NCBI RefSeq assembly: GCF_014873875.1
Contig: NZ_JADBEM010000001.1
Location: 8,494,001-8,558,000 of the forward strand
Length of the DNA: 64,000 nucleotides
DNA from: Actinopolymorpha pittospori
Lineage (GTDB): Bacteria; Actinomycetota; Actinomycetes; Propionibacteriales; Actinopolymorphaceae
Direction: 5' to 3'
In this document: positions 4,615-23,226 of the stretch, piece after piece
How the letters are laid out: the number at the start of each line of letters is the position of its first letter
Position numbering within the stretch: the stretch's first letter is position 1
Translations under genes and position numbers: made by a program
The notes under the pieces: model-generated
What the model was told of the DNA's origin: nothing
The model's database searches: none
Seen by the model: only the letters and a program-made list of their open reading frames with translations

Positions 4615-5494
4615 GGCACGTCCAGGGGACGCCGGGCCCGTGAGCGGGACACGCCCGCGCCCGACCTCCACGCCGAGACGACCGGTCAGCCCGCGGTTCT
4701 TCGGCTCCGAACTCCTGCTGCTCTTCGGTCGCCGTCGCAACTGGGCCGGCCTCGCCGTCCTGGCCGCCGTACCCCTCATCATCGCCGTGGCCTCGAAGGT
4801 CACCGACAGCGGAAGCGGCGGCGGTCCGAACTTCTTCAGCGGTATCACCTCCAACGGGCTCTTCGTCGCCCTGGCCGCCCTCACCGTCGAGCTTCCGTTG
4901 TTCCTTCCGCTGGCCGTGTCGGCCATCTCGGGTGACGCGATCGCCGGGGAGGCCAACCAGGGAACGCTGCGCGCGCTGCTCACGGTGCCGGTACGTCGTT
5001 CCCGCCTGCTGGCGGTGAAGTACGCCGGCATCGTGGTGTTCGCGCTCGCCTCGACCCTGCTGGTGGCGGTGGTCGGAGCGGTGGCCGGACTCGCGTTGTT
5101 CGGCGGTGGTCCGCTTCTCCTGCTCTCGGGGGTCGAGGTCGGGTTCGGCGCCGGGCTCTGGCGACTGCTGCTGGTCTGCTGCTACATCGCGTTCTGCCTG
5201 GCCACGCTCGGCGCGGTCGGGTTGTTCGTGTCGACGCTCACCGAGCAACCGATCGGCGCCACCATCGCCACCATGATCGTGGCCATCACGAGTCAGATCC
5301 TGAACAACATCCCGCAACTCGACTGGCTGCACCCGTACCTGCTCAGCCACTACTGGCTGGCGTTCGGCGACCTGCTGCGCTCCCCCATCAGCTTCGAGTC
5401 GATCACACCGGGCCTGTGGCTCGGCACGGGCTACATCCTGGTCTTCCTGGCGGCCGCCTGGGCGAGGTTCGCCGGCCGCGACGTCACCAGCTGA
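4601..5494 (+). CDS. ABC-2 type transporter permease
   Basis: Membrane protein of 297 aa. A 30-residue Pro/Arg-rich cytoplasmic start precedes about six membrane helices, including WAGLAVLAAVPLIIAV near the start and LGTGYILVFLAAAWARF at the end. The pattern AGEANQGTLRALLTVPVRRSRLL between the second and third helices is the cytoplasmic coupling segment typical of ABC-2 permeases acting with NatA-like ATPases. The ATG at 4601 lies inside the end of the ATPase gene. It is the last gene of the operon and converges on the PurA-like gene. Confidence 0.92.
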   Translation: MSVAEARPGDAGPVSGTRPRPTSTPRRPVSPRFFGSELLLLFGRRRNWAGLAVLAAVPLIIAVASKVTDSGSGGGPNFFSGITSNGLFVALAALTVELPLFLPLAVSAISGDAIAGEANQGTLRALLTVPVRRSRLLAVKYAGIVVFALASTLLVAVVGAVAGLALFGGGPLLLLSGVEVGFGAGLWRLLLVCCYIAFCLATLGAVGLFVSTLTEQPIGATIATMIVAITSQILNNIPQLDWLHPYLLSHYWLAFGDLLRSPISFESITPGLWLGTGYILVFLAAAWARFAGRDVTS

Positions 5495-13162: not shown

Positions 13163-14899
13163 TCAGCCCTCACGACCAGCGTCATGACCACCGCCATGAC
13201 CGTGGGCATCATCACGGGCACGCTCACGGGGAGGGGCGGGGAGGACGAGGACCTCGTCCACCAGGTCACGTGGCACCTCGCGATGGGTGATCAGAACGAC
13301 GGTCCGTCCCGCGGTGGCGGCCAGCAGGTCACGGGTCAGCTCCGTCGCCGCCGGCTCCTCGAGGTGCTCTGTGGGTTCGTCCAGGATCACCACTGGAGCG
13401 TCCGCGAGCAGGCAGCGGGCCAGTGCGAGACGTTGGCGTTCTCCGCCGGAGAGGCGTTCACCGTGCTCGCCCACCCTGGTCCCGAGCCCGTCCGGGAAGC
13501 TCTCCACCCAGTCCAGCAGCCGCGCCCCTCGTAACGCGTCCCGTACGTCCTCATCGCCGGCGCCGGGACGGGCGAGCCGGACGTTCTCGGCGATGGTGGT
13601 GTCGAAGATGTGCGCGTCCTGCGCGCACAGGCTCACGACCGACCGGACGTCGTCCGCGCGCAGGCGCCGCACGTCCACCCCGTTCACCATGATCCGCCCG
13701 GCGGCCGGCTCCACGAAACGGACGAGTGCCTGCGCGAGCGTGCTCTTCCCACAGCCGCTCGGCCCGACCACGGCCACCCGCCGGCCCGGCCGCAAGTCCA
13801 GGTTGACGTTCCTCAGCACCCACGGTCCGGAGTCCGACCAGCGTACGGACAGCCTCTCCACCCGGACGTGGTACGGCGGTGCCGGAAGCGGATCCGGGAC
13901 CGCGGGCTCCCGCACCGGTTCCACCGCCGAGCGGATCTGCGCGAGCCGAGCCAGTGCGGGCCGGACCCGGCCCGCGGTAGCGGCGGCACCCGGCAGGCCC
14001 GCGAACACGTCCGCGAGTGCCAGTGGAACGAGCGCGAGGACGGCGAGCAGCACCGGGTCGAGCCGACCCGACCCGACCGCCGGCACGCCGAACGCGAGCC
14101 CGGCCCAACTGGCGGCACCGACGAGTAGGACCAGCGTGCCGGCTCCGAGCCCGGTGCTCCACGCGGCTCTGCGCTCGGCTCGCCGTAGTCGCGCGTCGCT
14201 TTCCCCGACCCGGGCCAGGGCGGCGTCGGCCGCGCCATAGGCGAGCAGGTCGGGCGCCGCGTCGAGGAGTTCGGTCGTGGTGGCGGCGAGCACGCCGCGT
14301 TCGGGGGCGACCGAGGCTTCGGCCCGGCGTCCGGCGCGCGCGACCAGCCAGGGAACGCCGAGGAGGCAGAGTCCCACCGCGGCCGCGGTCGCCGCACCCG
14401 CGACGGGCAGGATCACCGCGAGCAGGGCGGCGGTGGCGGCCCCGGTCACTCCCGCCGCGGTCACCGGGAGGGCGATCCGGAGTACGACGTCGAGCACCGC
14501 GTCGACGTCGCCGACCAGCCGCGTCAGCAGGTCCCCGGAACGGAACGCCGCGAGGCCCGAGGGCGCGATCCGTTCGATCCGCTCGTACGCGCGGGCTCGC
14601 ACGTCGCCGAGCAACCGGTACGCCGCGTCGTGGGCGAGCAGCCGCTCCGCGTAGCGGAGCACGCCGCGGCCGAGTCCGAACGCCCGGACGGCCACGATCG
14701 CCACCATCAACACGAGCACCGGCGGATGCTGGGCGGCCCGCGAGATCAGCCAGGCCGACGTCGCCAGCAGGGCGACCCCGCTCGCGGCCGCAGCGACGCC
14801 GGCGCCTGCCGCGAGGGTCAGGCGCGGCCACCGCTTCACCAGGCGCCACCAGCCGCCCATCGGGCGCCCGCGAGTCGCGTGGATGCTCCCGGCGCTCAT
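13163..14899 (-). CDS. cydC: Thiol reductant ABC exporter subunit CydC
   Basis: Half of the heterodimeric CydDC ABC exporter needed to assemble cytochrome bd (exports glutathione/cysteine or supports haem loading). 578 aa: six membrane helices in the first 300 residues, then an ATPase with Walker A GPSGCGKST, signature LSGGERQRLALAR and Walker B VVILDEPTEHLE. The ATG overlaps the cydD stop (ATGA). Last gene of cydABDC. The C-terminal tail is rich in His/Gly (HGHGGGH), unusual and possibly metal-binding. Confidence 0.95.
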   Translation of the reverse strand: MSAGSIHATRGRPMGGWWRLVKRWPRLTLAAGAGVAAAASGVALLATSAWLISRAAQHPPVLVLMVAIVAVRAFGLGRGVLRYAERLLAHDAAYRLLGDVRARAYERIERIAPSGLAAFRSGDLLTRLVGDVDAVLDVVLRIALPVTAAGVTGAATAALLAVILPVAGAATAAAVGLCLLGVPWLVARAGRRAEASVAPERGVLAATTTELLDAAPDLLAYGAADAALARVGESDARLRRAERRAAWSTGLGAGTLVLLVGAASWAGLAFGVPAVGSGRLDPVLLAVLALVPLALADVFAGLPGAAATAGRVRPALARLAQIRSAVEPVREPAVPDPLPAPPYHVRVERLSVRWSDSGPWVLRNVNLDLRPGRRVAVVGPSGCGKSTLAQALVRFVEPAAGRIMVNGVDVRRLRADDVRSVVSLCAQDAHIFDTTIAENVRLARPGAGDEDVRDALRGARLLDWVESFPDGLGTRVGEHGERLSGGERQRLALARCLLADAPVVILDEPTEHLEEPAATELTRDLLAATAGRTVVLITHREVPRDLVDEVLVLPAPPRERARDDAHGHGGGHDAGREG

Positions 14900-16686
14900 G
14901 CGGGTACCCCCGCGAACGCCAGGGGCACCCGACCGGGTCGGGAGGTCGGGCACTTCCGCAGAGAGACCTCCACGACCCGGTCAGCCAGAGGGAGAAGGGC
15001 CGGCCGGTGGGTGACGAGGACGGTAGCGCAGCCCGCGGCCCGTAGCCGCCGGAGATGGCTGCCCACCCGGTCCTCGGTGACCGGATCCAGGCCCGCGGTC
15101 GGCTCGTCCAGGAGGAGCAGGCAGCCCTGGCCGGCCTGGGTCCGCGCGGCGACGCGGGCGAAGGCGCGGGCCAGAGCGACCCGTCGCACCTGACCGGCGG
15201 ACAGTCCCGAGCCCCGCTCCCCCACCACCAGGGCGGGGTCGAGGTCGTCCGCACCGGCCGCCGCCAGGGCTTCGCGCACCTGAACCTCCGTCGCGTTCGG
15301 TGCGCCGAGGCGGACGTTGTGGGCGACCGTCCCGGCCAGCAGGTACGGACGTTGGGGCACCCACGCGAGCCCCGTTCGCCACCGCTCGATGTCGATGTCG
15401 GACAGCTCGACCCGCGTACCGAGGGAGCCGGCGCGCTCGACCTCGCCGCTCCCGAGGAGTACCCGGCCCGAGGCTGGTACGACGAAGCCGAGCAGGACCG
15501 CGAGCAAGGTCGACTTGCCGGCTCCGCTCGGGCCGGCCAGGGCGACGGTCTCGCCGGGCCGAACCTCGAACGACACACCGGACAGCACCGGCCCCTCCCG
15601 GCCCGCACGCACCACCTCCAGGTCCTCGACCGTCAAGGTCGTCCTGCCTGGCTCCGGACCGACCCGTCGCCCGGACGGGTGCACCGGGGTGTCCAGGACC
15701 CGGAACGCCTCCTCCGCCGCGGCGAGGCCGTCCGCGCTGGCGTGGTAGTGCGTGCCGACCAGCCGGAGCGGTAGGTACGCCTCCGGCGCGAGGACGAGCA
15801 CCAGCACGGCGGTCCGCAGGTCGAGGTTGCCCTCGACCAGGCGGAGGCCGACACCGACCGCCACCAGCGCCACCGAGAGGGTGGCCAGGAGCTCCAGCAC
15901 GAGGGCGGAGAGGAACGCGATCCGCAACGTCGCGAGGGATTCCCGCCGGTGCTGGTCGGACACCTCACGCAGCGCCCGGGCCTGCGCTTTCGCCCGACCG
16001 AAGACCTTGAGCGTGGGCAGTCCGGCGACGACGTCGGCGAAATGGTGTGCCAGGACGGCCAGTGCCCGCCACCGGCGCCGCGTCCTGGCCCGGGTGGCGA
16101 GCCCGACCAGCACCATGAAGACCGGGATCAACGGCAGCGTGAGCGCCACGGTGAGGGCCGAGAGCAGGTCGGCACCGACCATCCAGGTGACGACGGCCGC
16201 CGGGACGACCACCGCGAGGATGAGTTGCGGCAGGTAACGGGCGAAGTATCCGTCCAGCGCGTCGAGTCCCGACGTCACCAACGTGGTGAGGGTGGTACGA
16301 CGTTCACCGACCAGCCAGGACGGCCCCAGCTCGAACACTCGCGCCAGCAGCCGCGCTCGCAAGGTCGACTTGACGGCGGCCGAGGAGCGGTGCGCGGCCA
16401 CCTCCTGCGCCCAGGCGAGTGCCGCCCGCGCGACGACGACGATCCCGAGCGCGACCAACAGGTGCCAGACCCCGGCCAGCCCTGTCGCCCCGCCGGAGAA
16501 CGAGCGACTGATCACGTCGGCCAGCAGCGTCGCCTGCGCGATCACCAGGCCCGCGGTCAGGGCGGAGATGCCGGTCGACAGCCCGACGTAGACCGCGCTC
16601 GCCCTGGCGTACCGCAACAGGCGCGGATCAAGCGGTGCGACCCCGCGCCGCGACGACCGGTTCCGCCGGCCGGTCCGGCCGCTCAT
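14896..16686 (-). CDS. cydD: Thiol reductant ABC exporter subunit CydD
   Basis: Partner of CydC, 596 aa. A basic N-terminus precedes a six-helix membrane domain and an ATPase with Walker A GPSGAGKST, signature LSAGQVRRVALARAF and Walker B LLLLDEPTAGLD. ATG at 16686 overlaps the cydB stop by 4 bp (ATGA) and its own stop overlaps cydC the same way, so cydB-D-C is translationally coupled. The frame is open upstream to 16977, but that part lies within cydB and is not coding. Confidence 0.95.
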   Translation of the reverse strand: MSGRTGRRNRSSRRGVAPLDPRLLRYARASAVYVGLSTGISALTAGLVIAQATLLADVISRSFSGGATGLAGVWHLLVALGIVVVARAALAWAQEVAAHRSSAAVKSTLRARLLARVFELGPSWLVGERRTTLTTLVTSGLDALDGYFARYLPQLILAVVVPAAVVTWMVGADLLSALTVALTLPLIPVFMVLVGLATRARTRRRWRALAVLAHHFADVVAGLPTLKVFGRAKAQARALREVSDQHRRESLATLRIAFLSALVLELLATLSVALVAVGVGLRLVEGNLDLRTAVLVLVLAPEAYLPLRLVGTHYHASADGLAAAEEAFRVLDTPVHPSGRRVGPEPGRTTLTVEDLEVVRAGREGPVLSGVSFEVRPGETVALAGPSGAGKSTLLAVLLGFVVPASGRVLLGSGEVERAGSLGTRVELSDIDIERWRTGLAWVPQRPYLLAGTVAHNVRLGAPNATEVQVREALAAAGADDLDPALVVGERGSGLSAGQVRRVALARAFARVAARTQAGQGCLLLLDEPTAGLDPVTEDRVGSHLRRLRAAGCATVLVTHRPALLPLADRVVEVSLRKCPTSRPGRVPLAFAGVPA

Positions 16687-17642
16687 CCGACCACCCGCTT
16701 GCGGAACACCCAGTAGCTCCAGCCCTGGTAGGCGAGCACCGCGGGAACGAACAGCGCGCCTGCCCAGGTGAGGATGCGCATCCCGTACGCCGGTGAGGCG
16801 GCGTTCATGATCGTCAGGTCGTGGCCGAGGGTCGAGGGCATGAGCGCCGGGAAGGCGGAGGCGAACACCGCGACCACGGTCAACCCCACCGCGACGGTCG
16901 TCGCGAGGAAGGCCCAGCCGTCCCGCCGGACGAGCACCCCCGCGAGGAGCCCGGCCCCCGCGATCAGGACGAGCCACTCGGCCGGTCCTTCACGCACACC
17001 GGTCCAGGCGAGGAAGCCGCCACCAAGAACGATCGCCGGCATCGCCGTCGCGACCACGGCCCGCCCGGCCCGGTCCCGTAGCGCGCCGGTGGTCCGCAGC
17101 CGCAGGAAAACCGCGCCGTGCAGGAGACACATCGCGAGAAGTGCCAGCCCACCGAGGACCGCGTAGGGCCGTAGCAGTTCGCCCAGGCCCCCGACGAGGA
17201 CGCCCCGCGCGTCCAACGGCAGCCCGTGCGCGGCGCCCGCCAGTGCGATCCCCCACGCCAGTGGTGGCAGGGCGGAACCCACCGCGATCCCGAGGTCGCA
17301 GCGACGCCGCCAGGTCCGGTCGTCGTGCTTGCCCCGGAACTCAAGTGCCACGCCGCGCAGGATCAACGCGACGAGAATCACCACGAGCGGGAGGTAGTAC
17401 GCGCTGGTCAGACTGGCGTACCACCCAGGGAAGGCCGCGAACGTCGCGCCCCCGGCCACGACGAGCCACACCTCGTTGCCGTCCCAGAACGGCCCGATGG
17501 TCGACAGCAGGGTTCCTCGCTCGGACTCGGTCCGCCCGAGCACCCGGGCGAGCACGCCGACACCGAAGTCGAAGCCCTCCAGGACGAAGTAGCTCGACCA
17601 GAAGAACACGATCAGCCCGAACCACAAGGTGGCGAGATCCAT
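16683..17642 (-). CDS. cydB: Cytochrome bd ubiquinol/menaquinol oxidase subunit II
   Basis: Membrane subunit of the high-affinity terminal oxidase, 319 aa with about eight helices. The family motifs FVLEGFDFGVG near the start and GPFWDGNEVWLV are present. The ATG at 17642 is preferred over the GTG at 17651 because AGGAG is spaced well for it. It starts 16 bp after cydA. With CydA it reduces oxygen to water at low oxygen tension. Confidence 0.97.
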   Translation of the reverse strand: MDLATLWFGLIVFFWSSYFVLEGFDFGVGVLARVLGRTESERGTLLSTIGPFWDGNEVWLVVAGGATFAAFPGWYASLTSAYYLPLVVILVALILRGVALEFRGKHDDRTWRRRCDLGIAVGSALPPLAWGIALAGAAHGLPLDARGVLVGGLGELLRPYAVLGGLALLAMCLLHGAVFLRLRTTGALRDRAGRAVVATAMPAIVLGGGFLAWTGVREGPAEWLVLIAGAGLLAGVLVRRDGWAFLATTVAVGLTVVAVFASAFPALMPSTLGHDLTIMNAASPAYGMRILTWAGALFVPAVLAYQGWSYWVFRKRVVG

Positions 17643-17657
17643 CGGTCGCACTCCTGC

Positions 17658-19121
17658 TCAGTAGGCGAACGTCATCGGTCGGTCGGCTTCGTCGGGATCG
17701 GCCTCGTCGCCGGCGCGCCTCGCGTCCCCTCCGCCGGAGTCGTCACCTCCGGCCGGAGGGTCGCCCTCGGCCGCTCCGGGCAGGTGTCGCGCCAGCCGGC
17801 GCAGGAGGCCGAACTCGACCACCGCGAGGACGGCGTACACCACGGTGAAGGCCAGCAGCGAGAACCAGACCTGCCAGGCGGTGGTGCCCGGTGACACGCC
17901 GTCGGCGGTCTTGAACAGGCCGAACGCAAGCCAGGGTTGACGGCCGCCCTCGGTGAACAGCCAGCCGAAGCTGTTCGCCAGCAGGGGAAGGAAGGGGACG
18001 GTGAGCGCGACCCTTGGCACCCACCGGTTCGCGAGCAACCCTGGTCGGCGCAGGAGGAGCAGGCCGACCAGCGCCAGGAAGGCGGCGAGCATGCCGAACC
18101 CGATCATCAGCCGGAAGCTCCAGTACGTCACCGGCACGTTCGGTACGTAGTCACCAGGCCCGTAGGTCGCGGCGTACTGCTGCTGCAGCGGGTTGATCCC
18201 CTCCACCTTGCCGGAGAAGCTCCCGGTCGCGAGGAACGACAGGACCTCCGGCACCCGGAAGCTCCACAGTTCCCGGTCACCGGCGACGTTCCCGAGCGTC
18301 AGGAGGGAGAACCCGGCCGGCTGCTCGGTGTGGAAGAGTCCCTCGGCCGCGGCCACCTTCACGGGCTGCAGCGACGTCATCAGCTTCATCATCGAGTCGC
18401 CCGTGATCGCCACACCGAGCGCGGCCACCAGGACCACCGAGCAACCCACCCTGGCGGCCGAACGGAACGCGGCCAGGACGTGTGCGGGTGCGCCCGGGCG
18501 CGCCAGGTGCCAGAACGCGACCCCCGCGACCAGTGCCCCGCCGGTGAGGAAGCAGGCCGCGGCGGTGTGCAGGCCGGCCTCGACCGCGGTCGGATTGGTC
18601 AGCAGCGCGACGAAGTCGGTCAACTCGATCCGCCCCGTGGCCGGGTCGAGCCGATACCCGACCGGGTGCTGCATCCACGCGTTGACCATGAGGATGACGT
18701 ACGCCGAGATCTGCGTTCCGATGGCGACCAACCAGATGCAGGCGAGGTGCACGCCCTTCGGAAGCCGGTCCCAGCCGAAGACCCACAGGCCGAGGAACGT
18801 CGCCTCCAGGAAGAACGCGAGCAGACCCTCGATCGCCAGTGGGACGCCGAAGACGTCTCCGACGAAGCGTGAGTAGGCGCTCCAGTTCATACCGAACTGG
18901 AACTCCTGGATGAGTCCGGTCACGATGCCCATGGCGAAGTTGACGATGAACAACTTCCCGAAGAACTTCGTCAGGGCGAGATAGCGCTCCGCCTTGGTGA
19001 TCAACCACGTCGTCTGCAGCCCGGCGATGATCGCCGAGAGGCCGATCGAGAGCGGCACGAACAGAAAGTGGTAGACGGTGGTGATCCCGAACTGCCACCG
19101 CGCCAGGTCGACTACGCCCAT
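17658..19121 (-). CDS. cydA: Cytochrome bd oxidase subunit I
   Basis: Haem-bearing subunit of cytochrome bd, 487 aa. Seen: WQFGITTVYHFLFVPLSIGL near the start (haem b595 His), FFLEATFLGLW, the quinol-side segment after LMTSLQPVKVAAAEG, and GWLFTEGGRQPW near the end. The C-terminal 50 residues are charged and disordered. First gene of cydABDC. Two overlapping 17-bp palindromes sit 8-39 bp upstream of its ATG over the likely promoter. No clear ribosome site, so the 5' leader may be very short. Confidence 0.97.
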   Translation of the reverse strand: MGVVDLARWQFGITTVYHFLFVPLSIGLSAIIAGLQTTWLITKAERYLALTKFFGKLFIVNFAMGIVTGLIQEFQFGMNWSAYSRFVGDVFGVPLAIEGLLAFFLEATFLGLWVFGWDRLPKGVHLACIWLVAIGTQISAYVILMVNAWMQHPVGYRLDPATGRIELTDFVALLTNPTAVEAGLHTAAACFLTGGALVAGVAFWHLARPGAPAHVLAAFRSAARVGCSVVLVAALGVAITGDSMMKLMTSLQPVKVAAAEGLFHTEQPAGFSLLTLGNVAGDRELWSFRVPEVLSFLATGSFSGKVEGINPLQQQYAATYGPGDYVPNVPVTYWSFRLMIGFGMLAAFLALVGLLLLRRPGLLANRWVPRVALTVPFLPLLANSFGWLFTEGGRQPWLAFGLFKTADGVSPGTTAWQVWFSLLAFTVVYAVLAVVEFGLLRRLARHLPGAAEGDPPAGGDDSGGGDARRAGDEADPDEADRPMTFAY

Positions 19122-19128
19122 GCCGAGA

Positions 19129-19160
19129 TACTACCGAATGTAGTACGACGCGTTGTCGTA
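19129..19160. promoter_or_regulatory. Two overlapping BlaI-type operators at the cydA promoter
   Basis: Site 1 at 19129-19145 is TACTACCGAATGTAGTA; site 2 at 19144-19160 is TACGACGCGTTGTCGTA. Both have 6-bp arms with perfect symmetry and a 5-bp spacer and share two bases. Site 2 has exactly the arms of the palindrome on the blaI promoter (20489-20505). On the minus strand a TACATT -10-like box lies within site 1, so binding should block cyd transcription. Confidence 0.7.
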
Positions 19161-19219
19161 ACTTACGTCACAGCGCGGAACCGAGCCGGCAAAGGCCCAG
19201 CGAGCGAGGGGTGGGTGAG

Positions 19220-19246
19220 GGAAGGCTGGGTGATTAAAGGCTGGGT
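19220..19246. repeat. 12-bp direct repeat upstream of cydA
   Basis: AAGGCTGGGTGA occurs at 19220-19231 and again at 19235-19246, between the cydA promoter and the acyltransferase stop. Purine-rich surroundings; purpose unknown. Confidence 0.5.
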
Positions 19247-19271
19247 GAGCGAGGGCGGCGGTTGGTCGGCG

Positions 19272-20384
19272 TCAGGAACCAGGGGTGCGCCGCCGGGGCC
19301 GGAAGGCCCACTTCATGCCGGGCTCGATCGCCCAGTGGGTGACCGCTCGCACCGGAGGGGTCGACAGAAGCAGCGCGAGCACGACACCGGCGAGCGCCAC
19401 CGCCGCCACGCCGAGGTTGCTGTGCAGGGCCGGGTGGTCGTACCAGCCGAGATAGGTGCTGAGCTTCACCGGGATGCCGTGCAGGAGGTAGACGTACATC
19501 GTCACGGCCCCAAGTGAGGTGAACCACATCCGGCGCGAGGGCACCAGCGCGAAGAACGCCGCCGACAGGATCGTCGCGCAGACCAGCATGCCCATCCGCA
19601 TGGCCGTACCGGTGAGGTTGTCGACCCCGAGGTAGTCGTTGCTACGACGCCAGAAGATCCACTCCATGCTCATCCGGCTCTGTGCCCAGGAGGCCACGAC
19701 CAGGCCGCCGACCAGCACCACGACGGCGAGCACGCGCACCCCGCGGCGTCGGAGGTAGACGAAGTACTCGGGCTTGCACAGCATGCCGAGCACGAAGAAC
19801 GGAAGCAGGCTGAGCACCCGACCGGTCTCGAGAACTCCCGGAAGATCCTGCAGGCCGGCAACGAGCGAGATCGCGACCGCGACCGCGAGCGGCCAACGGA
19901 TCCGCAGCCAGACCGGCGCCGAAAGCCGCCAGGCGCACAACGCCAGCAGGAACCACACCAGGAAGTACGGGTCGAGCAAGGTGAGGTTGACGTCGCTGCC
20001 GCCGACGAATCTCGCCAGCAGCTCATAGACCAACTGGAAGACGATGAACGGCACCACCAGCTGGGTGATCAGCTTGCGCACCTTGTCCGGCGAGGACGGG
20101 AAACGCCGGGAGAAGTAACCGGCCACGATGATGAAGACCGGCATGTGGAACATGTACAGGAACAGGTAGAAGGTGCGCGCCGCGGGTACGTCGCGGAGTG
20201 CCTCGATCGCGTGTCCGGCGACGACCAGCACGATCGCCAGGTATTTCACGTTGTCGTAGAAGGGATCGCGAACCTTCGACGATCCGGAGACAGAGGCGGC
20301 CGCCGACGGGTCAGCTGGACGTGAGGCTGGCTCGACGGTACGTGAATCGGGCTGAACCGTGGATGTCGCCATCAACCTGACCAT
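19272..20384 (-). CDS. Membrane acyltransferase family protein (acyltransferase-3 type)
   Basis: Integral membrane protein of 370 aa with about ten helices. After a 45-residue disordered Ser/Pro-rich start comes RDPFYDNVKYLAIVLVVAGHAIE, which has the conserved Asn and His of the acyltransferase-3 fold. Later segments include YLFLYMFHMPVFIIVAGYF and VTMYVYLLHGIP. The family O-acetylates sugars, cell-wall or lipid groups, but the closest members (fucose 4-O-acetylase-like) have no firm substrate. ATG at 20384 with ribosome site GGAGAG. Divergent from blaI, and the operator at 20489 lies 105 bp upstream. Confidence 0.85.
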   Translation of the reverse strand: MVRLMATSTVQPDSRTVEPASRPADPSAAASVSGSSKVRDPFYDNVKYLAIVLVVAGHAIEALRDVPAARTFYLFLYMFHMPVFIIVAGYFSRRFPSSPDKVRKLITQLVVPFIVFQLVYELLARFVGGSDVNLTLLDPYFLVWFLLALCAWRLSAPVWLRIRWPLAVAVAISLVAGLQDLPGVLETGRVLSLLPFFVLGMLCKPEYFVYLRRRGVRVLAVVVLVGGLVVASWAQSRMSMEWIFWRRSNDYLGVDNLTGTAMRMGMLVCATILSAAFFALVPSRRMWFTSLGAVTMYVYLLHGIPVKLSTYLGWYDHPALHSNLGVAAVALAGVVLALLLSTPPVRAVTHWAIEPGMKWAFRPRRRTPGS

Positions 20385-20488
20385 ACCGACACTCTCCGTT
20401 TGTCTCAAAGCCACCGTGGGCGGCGACTCCAGATCACCTCCGTCGTCGAGACCGGTCCGGACGGCCCGCGACGGTCGACGCGAGGGAG

Positions 20489-20505
20489 TACGACACGTCG
20501 TCGTA
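20489..20505. promoter_or_regulatory. BlaI-type operator on the blaI promoter
   Basis: TACGACACGTCGTCGTA, a 17-bp perfect-arm palindrome (TACGAC, 5-bp spacer, GTCGTA) identical in arms to site 2 upstream of cydA. It overlaps the predicted -10 box, as expected for autorepression. Confidence 0.7.
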
Positions 20506-20509
20506 GAAT
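20504..20509 (+). promoter_or_regulatory. -10 box of blaI; transcript probably leaderless
   Basis: TAGAAT fits the actinobacterial TANNNT -10 pattern. Transcription would begin about 7 bases later, essentially at the ATG at 20517, and there is no ribosome site before that ATG, so a leaderless mRNA is likely. Confidence 0.5.
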
Positions 20510-20516
20510 CGGCCCC

Positions 20517-20921
20517 ATGGCACGGCTGGGCAATCTCGAACGCGAGGTCATGGAACGGGTCTGGTCATCGACGGAGCCGGTGACGGTGCGCGAGGTGCAC
20601 GAAGCTCTCGCGCAGGAACGTGATCTGGCTTACACCACGGTGATGACGGTGCTCGACCGACTCGCGAAGAAGGGCGTCGTCCAACGCGTCCGCGACGGCC
20701 GTGCCTACCGCTACGAAGCGGCCGCGGGCAAGGACCAGCTCGTCGCCGACCTCATGCGCGAGGCGCTCGACGGGGCCGGCAACGACGCCAACCGCGCCGC
20801 GGCACTCGTTCGCTTCGTCGACCAGGCGACACCGGAGGAGACGGCCGCGCTCCGCGAGGCCCTCGCCGAACTCGACGTGGTCGTCGATCCCCCACGCCGC
20901 CGACGCACACCGCGGAGCTGA
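20517..20921 (+). CDS. blaI: BlaI/MecI/CopY-family transcriptional repressor
   Basis: Winged-helix repressor of 134 aa. The DNA-binding half (about 1-75) shows the family pattern: LGNLEREVMERVWSS, PVTVREVHEALA, LAYTTVMTVLDRLAKKGVV and RDGRAYRYEA. The C-terminal helices serve as the dimer and cleavage region. It sits two bases from an M56 peptidase gene, the classic BlaI-BlaR pairing in which the peptidase inactivates the repressor. Start ATG 20517 is supported by the family alignment and the -10 box. Target genes probably include itself and cydABDC, from shared palindromes (inference). No beta-lactamase gene is in the window. Confidence 0.95.
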   Translation: MARLGNLEREVMERVWSSTEPVTVREVHEALAQERDLAYTTVMTVLDRLAKKGVVQRVRDGRAYRYEAAAGKDQLVADLMREALDGAGNDANRAAALVRFVDQATPEETAALREALAELDVVVDPPRRRRTPRS

Positions 20922-20923
20922 CG

Positions 20924-21835
20924 ATGACGCCGGTCGCCCTGGGCATGCTCGCGTTGCTGCTCACCTGGCCCGTACCGGAACTCCTCGGCCGTGCGCGCTG
21001 GCCCATGCGGGTGCCGCGCGCCGCCATCGTGTTGTGGCAGGCCCTCGCCCTCGCCGCGGTCCTCGCGGCGCTCGGAGCCGGGCTCAGCCTCGGCATGAAC
21101 GTCCTGCTCCAGCCCGACCGTGGTGCCGTGGCGATCGTGCTGCACTCGTTGGTGACGCTCCTCACCTGCATGGTGTTCGTCCGGCTGGTCTGGGCGACGG
21201 TGAAGGTCGCGGTTCGCACCCGGGCCCGGCGGCGCCACCACCGCATGCTGGTCGACCTGCTGGCCACCCCGGGCCGGCGCGTCCACCACGGTGATCTCGT
21301 GGTGCCCGGCATCCGGGTCCTGTCGGAGAACACGCCCTTCGCCTACTGCCTGCCCAGCGTCCGCGAGTCGCGGGTCGTGGTCTCCTCCGGCACGCTGGAC
21401 CAGCTCGAGCCGGAGGAGTTGCGTGCCGTTCTCAGCCACGAGCTCGCCCACCTGCGGGCCCGTCACGACCTCGTGCTGGAGGCGTTCACGGCCCTGCGCG
21501 AGGCCTTTCCCCGCTGGGTGCGCAGTCGTACGGCACTCGAACAGGGCCACCTCCTGATCGAGATGCTCGCCGACGACGCCGCCCGCCGTCGGGTGGGGGC
21601 ACCGCCGGTCGCTCGGGCACTGGTCGCCCTCGCGTCCACGCCGTCGGCTCCCACCGGCGGACTGGCCGCGGGTGGGGTCGGCACCCTGGCACGGGTACGC
21701 CGGCTCGCGATGCCGAGCGAGTCCCACCGGGCGCTGGCCCTCGCGACGTATCTCGCCGCGGGCGGACTCGTCGTCGTTCCGACCGTCACGCTCGCCATAC
21801 CGTGGCTGTCCGGGCTCGCCGAACTGCTGCGCTGA
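20924..21835 (+). CDS. M56-family membrane metallopeptidase (BlaR1-like)
   Basis: Membrane zinc protease of 303 aa. Several helices (near residues 5-20, 30-60, 67-92 and the C-terminal 270-300) surround a peptidase segment with HExxH as LSHELAHLRARHD. Unlike staphylococcal BlaR1 it has no penicillin-binding sensor domain, as in the short mycobacterial BlaR-like proteins. The partner repressor gene ends 2 bp upstream. What signal activates it is not visible; an envelope or respiratory cue is conceivable given the cyd link. Confidence 0.92.
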   Translation: MTPVALGMLALLLTWPVPELLGRARWPMRVPRAAIVLWQALALAAVLAALGAGLSLGMNVLLQPDRGAVAIVLHSLVTLLTCMVFVRLVWATVKVAVRTRARRRHHRMLVDLLATPGRRVHHGDLVVPGIRVLSENTPFAYCLPSVRESRVVVSSGTLDQLEPEELRAVLSHELAHLRARHDLVLEAFTALREAFPRWVRSRTALEQGHLLIEMLADDAARRRVGAPPVARALVALASTPSAPTGGLAAGGVGTLARVRRLAMPSESHRALALATYLAAGGLVVVPTVTLAIPWLSGLAELLR

Positions 21836-22203: not shown

Positions 22204-23226
22204 TCAGGTCAGCGCCTTCACGACCTCCCGTACGCAGCGCTCGGCCGAGAGCGGTCCACCGAAGAGCCACGCACCCGATCCGAGGCGGTGCACGCGACCC
22301 GTCCGGACGAACTCCAGCCCCTTCCAGGTCGAGCCGTCGGCGACCTGCCCCGTGAAGATGTTGTCCCGCGCATCGGAGAGGTAGAGGAAGTCCGCCATCG
22401 CCACGGAGTTCAGCGCGGGTACGCCGACCGTGGTGAAGCCGTACTGATCGGGGTCGCCCTTCCAGTCGTTGTGGAGGCCGAGGCGTTCCAGCACTTCGCT
22501 CGCCAACGAACTCCGCGCGAACATCCGCAGCGTCGGGACGCCCCGGTCGGAGTACCCCTCGGCGAGCGCGAACGGCATGTCAGCCTTCCCGGCCTCCGCC
22601 AGGTCCCGCCTGCCCGCGGCGATCGTCGCGTCGAGCCGAATCAGCGTCGCCGCCGCGAGGTCGGACCGCCCGACGGCGCGCGCGAGTTCGGTGAACGTCG
22701 TCCGCATCTCCTCCCAGGCGGACATATCGGCGCGGTACGGGTCGAACACGAGCACCGGAGCGATCTTCCGCAGTCCGCTGACCCACCTCTGCGCCCGGGT
22801 CCGGTCGACCACGATCAGGTCGGGACGCAGGGCGCGGATCTTCGTCGCGTCGGGCTGCCCGCGCGGCCCGACGTCGGCGGTCTTCGAGGAAAGTCTCGCG
22901 GCCGGGTCCGCGCCGACCCAGCTGGCATAGCCGGCCCGGTCCGCCACGCCGACGGGTTGGACGCCGACGGCGACGAGGTTCTCCGCGTAGGGCCAGTCCA
23001 GGGCGACCACCCGGGTGGCCGCCGCCCGCAGCCGCACCTGTCCCGTAACGTCCCTGACCGTCACCGGGGGAACCTTCGGCCGCGCGGACGGAGCGGGTCG
23101 GGACGTGCCGGTCGCCGTCGGCGACGCGGTGGGTTCGTCCCGGTCCGCCCGGCCGTTGGTGCAGGCCGTGAGCCCCACGGTGAGGAGTACGCCGACCACC
23201 AGCGCGAGTGCACGTCGTACGGACAC
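22204..23226 (-). CDS. Iron-siderophore-type ABC transporter substrate-binding lipoprotein
   Basis: Lipoprotein of 340 aa, class III (FecB/FhuD-like) binding protein. The signal peptide ends at a lipobox (TVGLTACTN), then a Ser/Thr/Pro linker. The core has VRDVTGQVRL, TRVVALDWPYAENLVAVGVQPVGVAD (split here into the usual two strands), IRALRPDLIVVDRTRA and KIAPVLVFDP, all typical of this class. GTG start 23226. No permease or ATPase gene is adjacent, so it either serves a transporter encoded elsewhere or is an orphan. Downstream of smc on the same strand (146-bp gap with short CCGCCGCAT repeats). Confidence 0.88.
   Translation of the reverse strand: MSVRRALALVVGVLLTVGLTACTNGRADRDEPTASPTATGTSRPAPSARPKVPPVTVRDVTGQVRLRAAATRVVALDWPYAENLVAVGVQPVGVADRAGYASWVGADPAARLSSKTADVGPRGQPDATKIRALRPDLIVVDRTRAQRWVSGLRKIAPVLVFDPYRADMSAWEEMRTTFTELARAVGRSDLAAATLIRLDATIAAGRRDLAEAGKADMPFALAEGYSDRGVPTLRMFARSSLASEVLERLGLHNDWKGDPDQYGFTTVGVPALNSVAMADFLYLSDARDNIFTGQVADGSTWKGLEFVRTGRVHRLGSGAWLFGGPLSAERCVREVVKALT

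Follow-up and report, generated by a model that had tools for sequence, protein, structure and literature searches.

A BlaI-type repressor and its protease partner as a probable switch of the cytochrome bd operon in Actinopolymorpha pittospori

Introduction

Why does the gene of a BlaI-type repressor share its operator with the promoter of a terminal oxidase? In this work we have investigated this question in a stretch of 64,000 nucleotides of the Actinopolymorpha pittospori genome (contig NZ_JADBEM010000001.1, positions 8,494,001 to 8,558,000 of the forward strand), referred to below as the window. It contains blaI (20517-20921, plus strand), which encodes a winged-helix repressor of 134 amino acids (aa) belonging to the Penicillinase_R family, followed by the gene of an M48/M56-like membrane metalloprotease of 303 aa (20924-21835, plus strand), and, on the minus strand, cydA (17658-19121), the gene of subunit I of cytochrome bd. 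The organism is a soil actinobacterium, and repressor-protease pairs of this type are known best as switches of penicillin resistance. As a backup oxidase, cytochrome bd serves actinobacterial respiration at low oxygen and the survival of inhibitors of the main respiratory branch. We propose, with a probability of about 0.8, that BlaI would be a dedicated repressor of the cyd operon which acts at the shared operators, and that the neighbouring protease would inactivate it upon a cue. A sequence-only reading of this DNA had already suggested that BlaI regulates cydABDC through such operators, and comparative genomics strongly supports the suggestion, since operators are present at both cydA and blaI, the genes are linked, operator and repressor are lost together, and the operators are retained where the genes have become unlinked.

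Shared operators at cydA and blaI

An exact search of the window for the palindrome TACNAC-N5-GTNGTA gave three matches only, all of them at the promoters of cydA and blaI. Two operators precede cydA on the minus strand, O1 (TACTAC-N5-GTAGTA, TACTACCGAATGTAGTA, 19129-19145) and O2 (TACGAC-N5-GTCGTA, TACGACGCGTTGTCGTA, 19144-19160), which are 15 bp apart and have 2 bp in common. The blaI operator, TACGAC-N5-GTCGTA (TACGACACGTCGTCGTA), is situated at 20489-20505 on the plus strand. The earlier reading had given just these positions and had noticed the arms nowhere else in the window, and both observations were reproduced. When up to two mismatches were allowed, the window contained 24 matches against 6.5 expected, and 24 was reached in none of 100 shuffles.

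The position of the operators is that of promoter elements. O1 overlaps a −10-like TAGTAT (19133-19128, minus strand) which lies 6 nt before the ATG of cydA, and the blaI operator overlaps a −10-like TAGAAT (20504-20509), 7 nt before the ATG of blaI. Actinobacterial promoters share a −10 consensus, and leaderless transcription is a habit of these bacteria. By their sequence, both boxes look like those of leaderless transcripts, and as blaI starts 7 nt after its box, it is perhaps leaderless. A repressor bound at either box would directly block RNA polymerase. The blaI operator may also touch the divergent promoter of an acyltransferase gene located between cydA and blaI.

Could the palindrome simply be a common repeat? 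A search of the whole genome had been set beforehand as a check of this, and it found exact matches to TACNAC-N5-GTNGTA at only six places in 10,562,590 bp. Since the reversed control pattern was found at 15, there is no enrichment of the pattern as such; three of these exact places, however, fall within 1.4 kb, at two promoters, where 0.0008-0.002 would be expected. Places with one mismatch number 163, compared to 410 for the reversed control, so that a lone one-mismatch site weighs little. On these counts the common-repeat reading was rejected. The genome assembly itself (G000, 10.56 Mb) is flagged with 8.3% contamination; those of five congeners measure 6.4-8.0 Mb.

Outside the 1.4 kb, one exact site lies upstream of a small membrane-protein gene and two lie within open reading frames (ORFs). 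The first of these ORFs has a homologue in genome G004 which matches Pfam APH, and the site recurs in the G004 gene, as coding conservation would give; the other is a long ORF, labelled by eye as YD-repeat-like. Both sites were set aside as chance matches. Ten further exact sites of congeners and family members were read, leaving aside those that precede the small membrane-protein gene, cydA or blaI; nine of these ten are inside called ORFs, the exception being at L084. Reading by eye found no beta-lactamase or penicillin-binding protein gene at any of the six exact places, in a survey that covered exact matches only, no search having been aimed at degenerate sites or at the beta-lactamase genes of the genome. 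Nor is there an ATP synthase gene at any of the six.

The small membrane-protein gene, which accounts for one of the six sites, may be a third target. Its operator (L014:4764-4780, genome position 4579763) is set in a long perfect hairpin and lies upstream of a gene (4860-5207) encoding a 115-aa membrane protein, which has roughly four hydrophobic segments and reaches the cut-off of no Pfam family. Families are referred to here by code numbers, and any family name attached to a code is an inference. In the order as a whole 34 genomes matched this gene and 30 loci were fetched. At all seven loci of f1, the family of the window, an exact operator precedes the matched start by 63-96 bp, and no site was found at the 23 other loci.

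Conservation in Propionibacteriales

The order was surveyed in 57 genomes, with E 1e-8 as the threshold for a BlaI match; cydA was found in 53 and a BlaI match in 47 of them. In 44 of the 53 cydA genomes the two genes diverge and are no more than 2.5 kb apart, with a gap of 68-245 bp in 37 genomes and of 1.3-2.05 kb in seven (G000-G005 and G007). The blaI loci of 30 of the 47 genomes with a match, the window genome included, were fetched, and in every one of them blaI is preceded by an exact operator and followed by the gene of an HExxH protease.

The cydA side is almost as regular. Both O1 and O2 are present at the same place in all five congeneric genomes (L027-L031), and among the first 30 cydA loci there are 26 where an exact operator is found no further than 400 bp away; the four others are three second copies and the cydA of G013, which has no BlaI match. 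Over all genomes, an exact operator precedes cydA in 42 of 46 with a BlaI match versus none of seven without one (Fisher 2e-6), or in 42 of 45 versus none of eight if G051 is counted as lacking the orthologue, so the conservation in relatives on which the sequence-only reading depended was found. Three genera include genomes of both kinds, and in these the operator is present in 9/10 genomes with BlaI and in 0/7 without (p 4e-4). In G006, blaI and cydA are separated by 2.39 Mb of the contig, yet exact operators are kept at both promoters. Second copies of cydA in the order lack the operator (0/9). That of the window genome belongs to a second cydAB-type cluster (L094, genome C1:3589000-3595500) with 56% identity to the window CydA and with no operator in the upstream region examined.

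The operator sequence itself offers an internal check. At 72 cydA loci, with any base allowed at the two free positions of the pattern, all 104 exact sites upstream of cydA have G or T in the left arm and A or C in the right. Neighbouring sites upstream of cydA, those with one mismatch included, are often 15, 19, 22, 33 or 36 bp apart, and such recurrent spacings make cooperative loading of BlaI possible.

BlaI and its paralogues

The window BlaI passes the curated Pfam cut-off of Penicillinase_R (PF03965) with 102.4 bits versus 22.6. Its best solved relative is BlaI of Mycobacterium tuberculosis (2g9w; 131 bits, E 2.4e-37), to which it is 59% identical over 118 aa, and MecI scores about 26 bits. 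Four Penicillinase_R proteins are encoded in the genome in all, the three paralogues being 46, 34 and 35% identical to 2g9w. By sequence, the window BlaI thus appears to be the orthologue of the M. tuberculosis type (Rv1846c), being closer to it than the paralogues and having the same operator as is found in family f7.

None of the three paralogues has an exact TACKAC-N5-GTMGTA within 250 bp. Two further blaI-protease pairs (L012 and L013, genome 225179 and 5016489) have promoters with CTACTACA-like palindromes of other spacing. A paralogue at L011 (genome 8605071) has no protease partner, lies beside what by eye is an M23-like peptidase gene and groups with three BlaI proteins of the Streptomyces-like family f22; a one-mismatch site precedes this paralogue by about 0.2 kb.

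Other families of the class

A sample of 197 genomes of the class includes at least 119 with CydA and at least 114 with BlaI. Among the matches listed, blaI is divergent from cydA in all 15 cydA genomes of f23, which is probably Micromonosporaceae, in five of eight cydA genomes of f39 and in one genome each of f6 and f31, with gaps of 97-296 bp; a sixth divergent f39 genome, G237, was read from the sequence of L219. The gap contains exact sites in 15/15 f23 genomes (13 read from cydA loci, G163 and G209 from blaI loci), and the divergent genes of Paractinoplanes (L076 and L077) have two exact sites and one one-mismatch site. The intergenic palindrome of f39 and f6 is TTCTAC-N5-GTAGAA in six of six genomes (L222, L223, L219, L326, L327 and L328), a count that leaves out G185, also divergent. 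Its 17-bp geometry is the same as that of TACNAC-N5-GTNGTA, and it may be that this operator variant and its repressor drifted together or co-evolved.

Other arrangements are found as well. In G146 and G238 of f40, blaI, the protease gene, cydA and, by eye, a cydB-like gene are co-directional (L220 and L221), and these clusters have only one-mismatch sites, before blaI; another cydA of the same genomes, unlinked (L127 and L128), has two exact operators. In G102 and G221 of f36 the order is cydA-cydB-ABC-blaI-protease, all co-directional, with exact sites solely before cydA and no called gene in the roughly 1.65 kb preceding blaI. Family f7 can be called Mycobacteriaceae-like, because its 12 compared BlaI proteins are 79-93% identical to 2g9w. 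Here blaI is unlinked from cyd, an exact site lies upstream of cydA in 14/14 cases, and the pattern is present upstream of blaI in 11 of the 12 examined. The pattern search in f7 also found a site before the leading gene of the atp operon in all four genomes examined (Pfam ATP-synt_I, run on two of the four); as this operon is a reported BlaI target, the pattern marks a reported BlaI site. In three of the four genomes (L299, L305 and L315) the pattern also occurs shortly upstream of a membrane-protein gene which is DUF4383-like, a label from a Pfam run for L299 only.

The exact site is absent from the cydA upstream regions of f22 (0/6), whose Streptomyces-like nature is inferred, and from those of f21 (0/4) and f33 (0/1). 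Family f20 has it in one of ten, with a one-mismatch site in the other nine, and f36 in two of three. Three BlaI matches of f22 cluster with G000par2, a paralogue of the window genome that has no protease partner, and no protease gene is near them.

The protease partner

The window protease scores 43.7 bits with Pfam M48, over the cut-off of 20.3, and 22.8 bits with M56, under the cut-off of 31. By these scores, the M56 partner named by the sequence-only reading is M48-like and resembles M56 only weakly. It is a membrane protein with HExxH and ExxAD motifs (HELAH and EMLADD), and its hydrophobic stretches lie between residues 4 and 97 and between residues 270 and 299. A profile search of solved structures weakly matched M48 types (HtpX, an M48 peptidase and Ste24p); ankyrin-repeat matches in that search were judged spurious. 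The residues of the zinc-protease motif are invariant in seven of seven aligned proteases, and HExxH with ExxAD was found in the partner proteases of all 30 order loci and all 28 class loci.

BlaR1 and MecR1 carry an extracellular penicillin-binding sensor domain. No sensor domain was found in the window protease: Pfam finds M48/M56 only in its 303 aa, the end (270-299) is hydrophobic, and, judged by this layout, there is no room for a domain of the BlaR1 type. All 58 partner proteases have an invariant cysteine which precedes HExxH by 30 residues and belongs to an AYC(L/I/V)P segment, and it is not present in the two paralogous proteases of the window genome. As it also occurs in f21, where the four cydA promoters examined are siteless, and in G040, which has no cydA, the cysteine does not single out cyd control. 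We regard this cysteine as a candidate for a sensing residue, not as evidence of cyd control.

Neighbouring genes

Both CydA (PF01654, 529 bits) and CydB (PF02322, 322 bits) are over their Pfam cut-offs; cydB, the gene of subunit II, lies at 16683-17651 on the minus strand. Two ATP-binding cassette (ABC) transporter genes occupy the following cyd operon positions on the same strand, a cydD-like one at 14896-16650 (ABC_membrane and ABC_tran) and a cydC-like one at 13163-14905 (ABC_tran and ABC_membrane), both with an uncertain start. The acyltransferase gene between cydA and blaI (19272-20372, minus strand; Acyl_transf_3, 84 bits) is outside the conserved module, and by eye a similar ORF is found at its position in A. 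alba (L072) and A. rutila (L073). Near the protease gene, at 22204-23226, lies the gene of a periplasmic-binding-protein-like lipoprotein (Peripla_BP_2), and A. rutila has an ORF resembling it, by eye, at the same place.

Discussion

The sequences directly show that the operators stand at the promoters and are conserved, that blaI and cydA are linked, and that operator and repressor are lost together. From these observations we infer DNA binding by the window BlaI, repression, proteolysis and a cue. According to our model, BlaI dimers would occupy the 17-bp operators over the −10-like boxes, two at cydA and one at blaI, and would thereby block transcription of both cydABDC and the blaI-protease operon. 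A membrane or respiratory cue would lead the M48/M56-like protease to inactivate BlaI, most likely by cleavage, and the cyd oxidase would then be derepressed together with the blaI-protease switch itself. Regulated proteolysis by the neighbouring protease is suggested by homology (HExxH, ExxAD and the membrane segments) and by the constant pairing of the two genes. The recurrence of the blaI-protease-cyd pairing in several actinobacterial families suggests that the pair probably controls respiration.

Several observations weigh against this model. The genomes are related, and both the Fisher tests and the count of 104 sites ignore kinship; moreover, the 72 loci of that count were picked for carrying a site, the two free columns being unconstrained. 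Three genomes with blaI beside cydA have no exact operator (G021, G032, with one mismatch, and G035), and G051 has a BlaI match yet no operator at cydA. Several families of the class that have cydA and no more than a distant BlaI are without a site: among 26 further class cydA loci, 11 lack it (one each of f24, f30, f17, f20 and f35 and two each of f31, f16 and f29). One of the 11 is one more f20 locus, and the second cydA of G117 is also among them. The deep branches of the BlaI tree are poorly resolved, and orthology across families therefore rests on operator and linkage too. The protease is below the Pfam cut-off of M56, and its predicted structure was uninformative, with a mean predicted local distance difference test score (pLDDT) of 60.2 and no PDB match with E <0.001. 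Mycobacterial cydAB is under Crp and SenX3-RegX3 (PMC7739888 and PMC7719681), and BlaI would for this reason be at most one input to it. According to PMC5473688, amoxicillin-clavulanate raised cydAB and lowered some ATP synthase genes, a pattern which differs from the prediction of a BlaI switch alone.

Might blaI and cyd instead be co-regulated through these operators by a paralogue of BlaI or some other factor, so that the neighbouring BlaI is incidental? The genome does encode four Penicillinase_R proteins, paralogue promoters carry related palindromes, and the L011 paralogue has its one-mismatch site. We nevertheless consider this very improbable, since the cydA operator is missing wherever the window-type BlaI is missing within the three genera, the operator is present at the promoter of this BlaI at 30/30 loci, the three paralogues are without the exact pattern nearby, and the pattern also marks the reported mycobacterial BlaI target. 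That the palindromes are chance, or hairpin or terminator elements, is barely conceivable, even though the reversed control is the more frequent pattern genome-wide and the L014 site stands in a hairpin. The arms of many conserved sites are unequal, as in TACTAC with GTCGTA, so that these sites are not made for hairpins, and several families keep the palindromes upstream of cydA; the chance reading was rejected on this conservation and on the co-loss.

How BlaI might be released is another matter. Perhaps it controls cyd and is freed by ligand binding, oxidation or dilution, with the protease acting on some other substrate; this would agree with the weak M56 score and the lack of a sensor domain, and PMC5473688 puts BlaR of M. 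tuberculosis downstream of WhiB4 and of the redox state. We think this rather unlikely, as the protease gene follows blaI with intact catalytic motifs at every order and class locus (30/30 and 28/28). Staphylococcal BlaI/BlaR1 and MecI/MecR1, too, work by protease-triggered loss of the repressor. Somewhat less likely still is that the primary role lies in a cell-wall or beta-lactam response, with cyd as one respiratory target, as proposed for M. tuberculosis. The mycobacterial BlaI regulon reportedly responds to beta-lactams, and the statement of the sequence-only reading that control is not by beta-lactams goes too far in this respect, although the absent sensor domain does argue against their direct binding. 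Amoxicillin-clavulanate also raises cydAB and blaI-blaR in M. tuberculosis (PMC5473688). On the other hand, no beta-lactamase gene was read by eye among the neighbours of the six exact places, and the partner that is physically conserved across families is cyd.

Beta-lactam binding in the manner of BlaR1 is impossible for sensorless BlaR-like proteases, and the pairing with cyd that several families keep suggests that their cue comes from respiration or membrane energy. It is a tentative thought, possible rather than probable, that controlling cyd was the original function of the BlaI-protease pair in actinobacteria, to which the mycobacterial control of beta-lactamase and ATP synthase was added later, and that the sensorless protease itself reads the respiratory state, perhaps via the AYC cysteine, as a one-component membrane redox or respiratory switch. 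As these organisms are harmless and their two-gene switch stands beside a single target operon, they are a convenient setting in which to test the cue of the protease.

What seems to be new is a conserved, dedicated BlaI/BlaR-like pair with a terminal oxidase as its partner; BlaI at the cyd promoter has already been stated for M. tuberculosis. The word BlaI does not occur in the main text of PMC7739888, PMC7719681 and PMC7337898, which deal with actinobacterial cyd regulation, and in PMC8765290 it occurs solely as an author's name. The conserved blaI-protease-cyd module was in no title or beginning of an abstract that we found in the open-licence PMC literature.

Comparison with known systems

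Control of cytochrome bd in actinobacteria has been described for other regulators. Rex of Streptomyces is likewise a repressor of cydAB in an actinobacterium (PMC7739888), but it senses NADH/NAD+, and the six f22 cydA promoters are without a BlaI-type site. Crp and SenX3-RegX3 of mycobacteria and HrrA/SigC of Corynebacterium glutamicum also control cydAB under respiratory or heme stress (PMC7739888, PMC7719681 and PMC7337898), although these regulators are unrelated to BlaI.

The staphylococcal pairs BlaI/BlaR1 and MecI/MecR1 resemble the Actinopolymorpha pair in their organization. In both, a winged-helix repressor of the BlaI family and a membrane metalloprotease are encoded in one operon, and palindromic operators over the promoters allow autoregulation, which for Actinopolymorpha is read from the sequence. 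The staphylococcal proteases have a sensor domain, whereas the 303-aa Actinopolymorpha protease has none; the targets there are resistance genes, and the window BlaI is far from MecI in score (about 26 bits versus 131 for 2g9w).

The nearest known system is BlaI-BlaR (Rv1846c-Rv1845c) of M. tuberculosis, whose repressor is the closest solved relative of the window BlaI at 59% identity. M. tuberculosis BlaI also governs blaC-sigC. The abstract of the 2009 study by Sala reportedly names five loci, cyd not among them, whereas a later paper cites that study for BlaI at the cytochrome bd promoter. In Mycobacteriaceae-like genomes, the same operator is present at blaI, cydA and ATP synthase. PMC5473688 (2017), citing Sala 2009, has BlaI of M. 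tuberculosis bind the cytochrome bd and ATP synthase promoters, and it describes the protease partner there as sensorless too. The mycobacterial ATP synthase operon is a BlaI target by electrophoretic mobility shift assay and quantitative reverse-transcription PCR (PMC12565901). ATP synthase is thus governed by BlaI in the mycobacterial system, whereas no exact site of Actinopolymorpha lies at ATP synthase. The two systems differ in their gene order as well: blaI is unlinked from cyd in f7, whereas in Actinopolymorpha it stands beside cyd.

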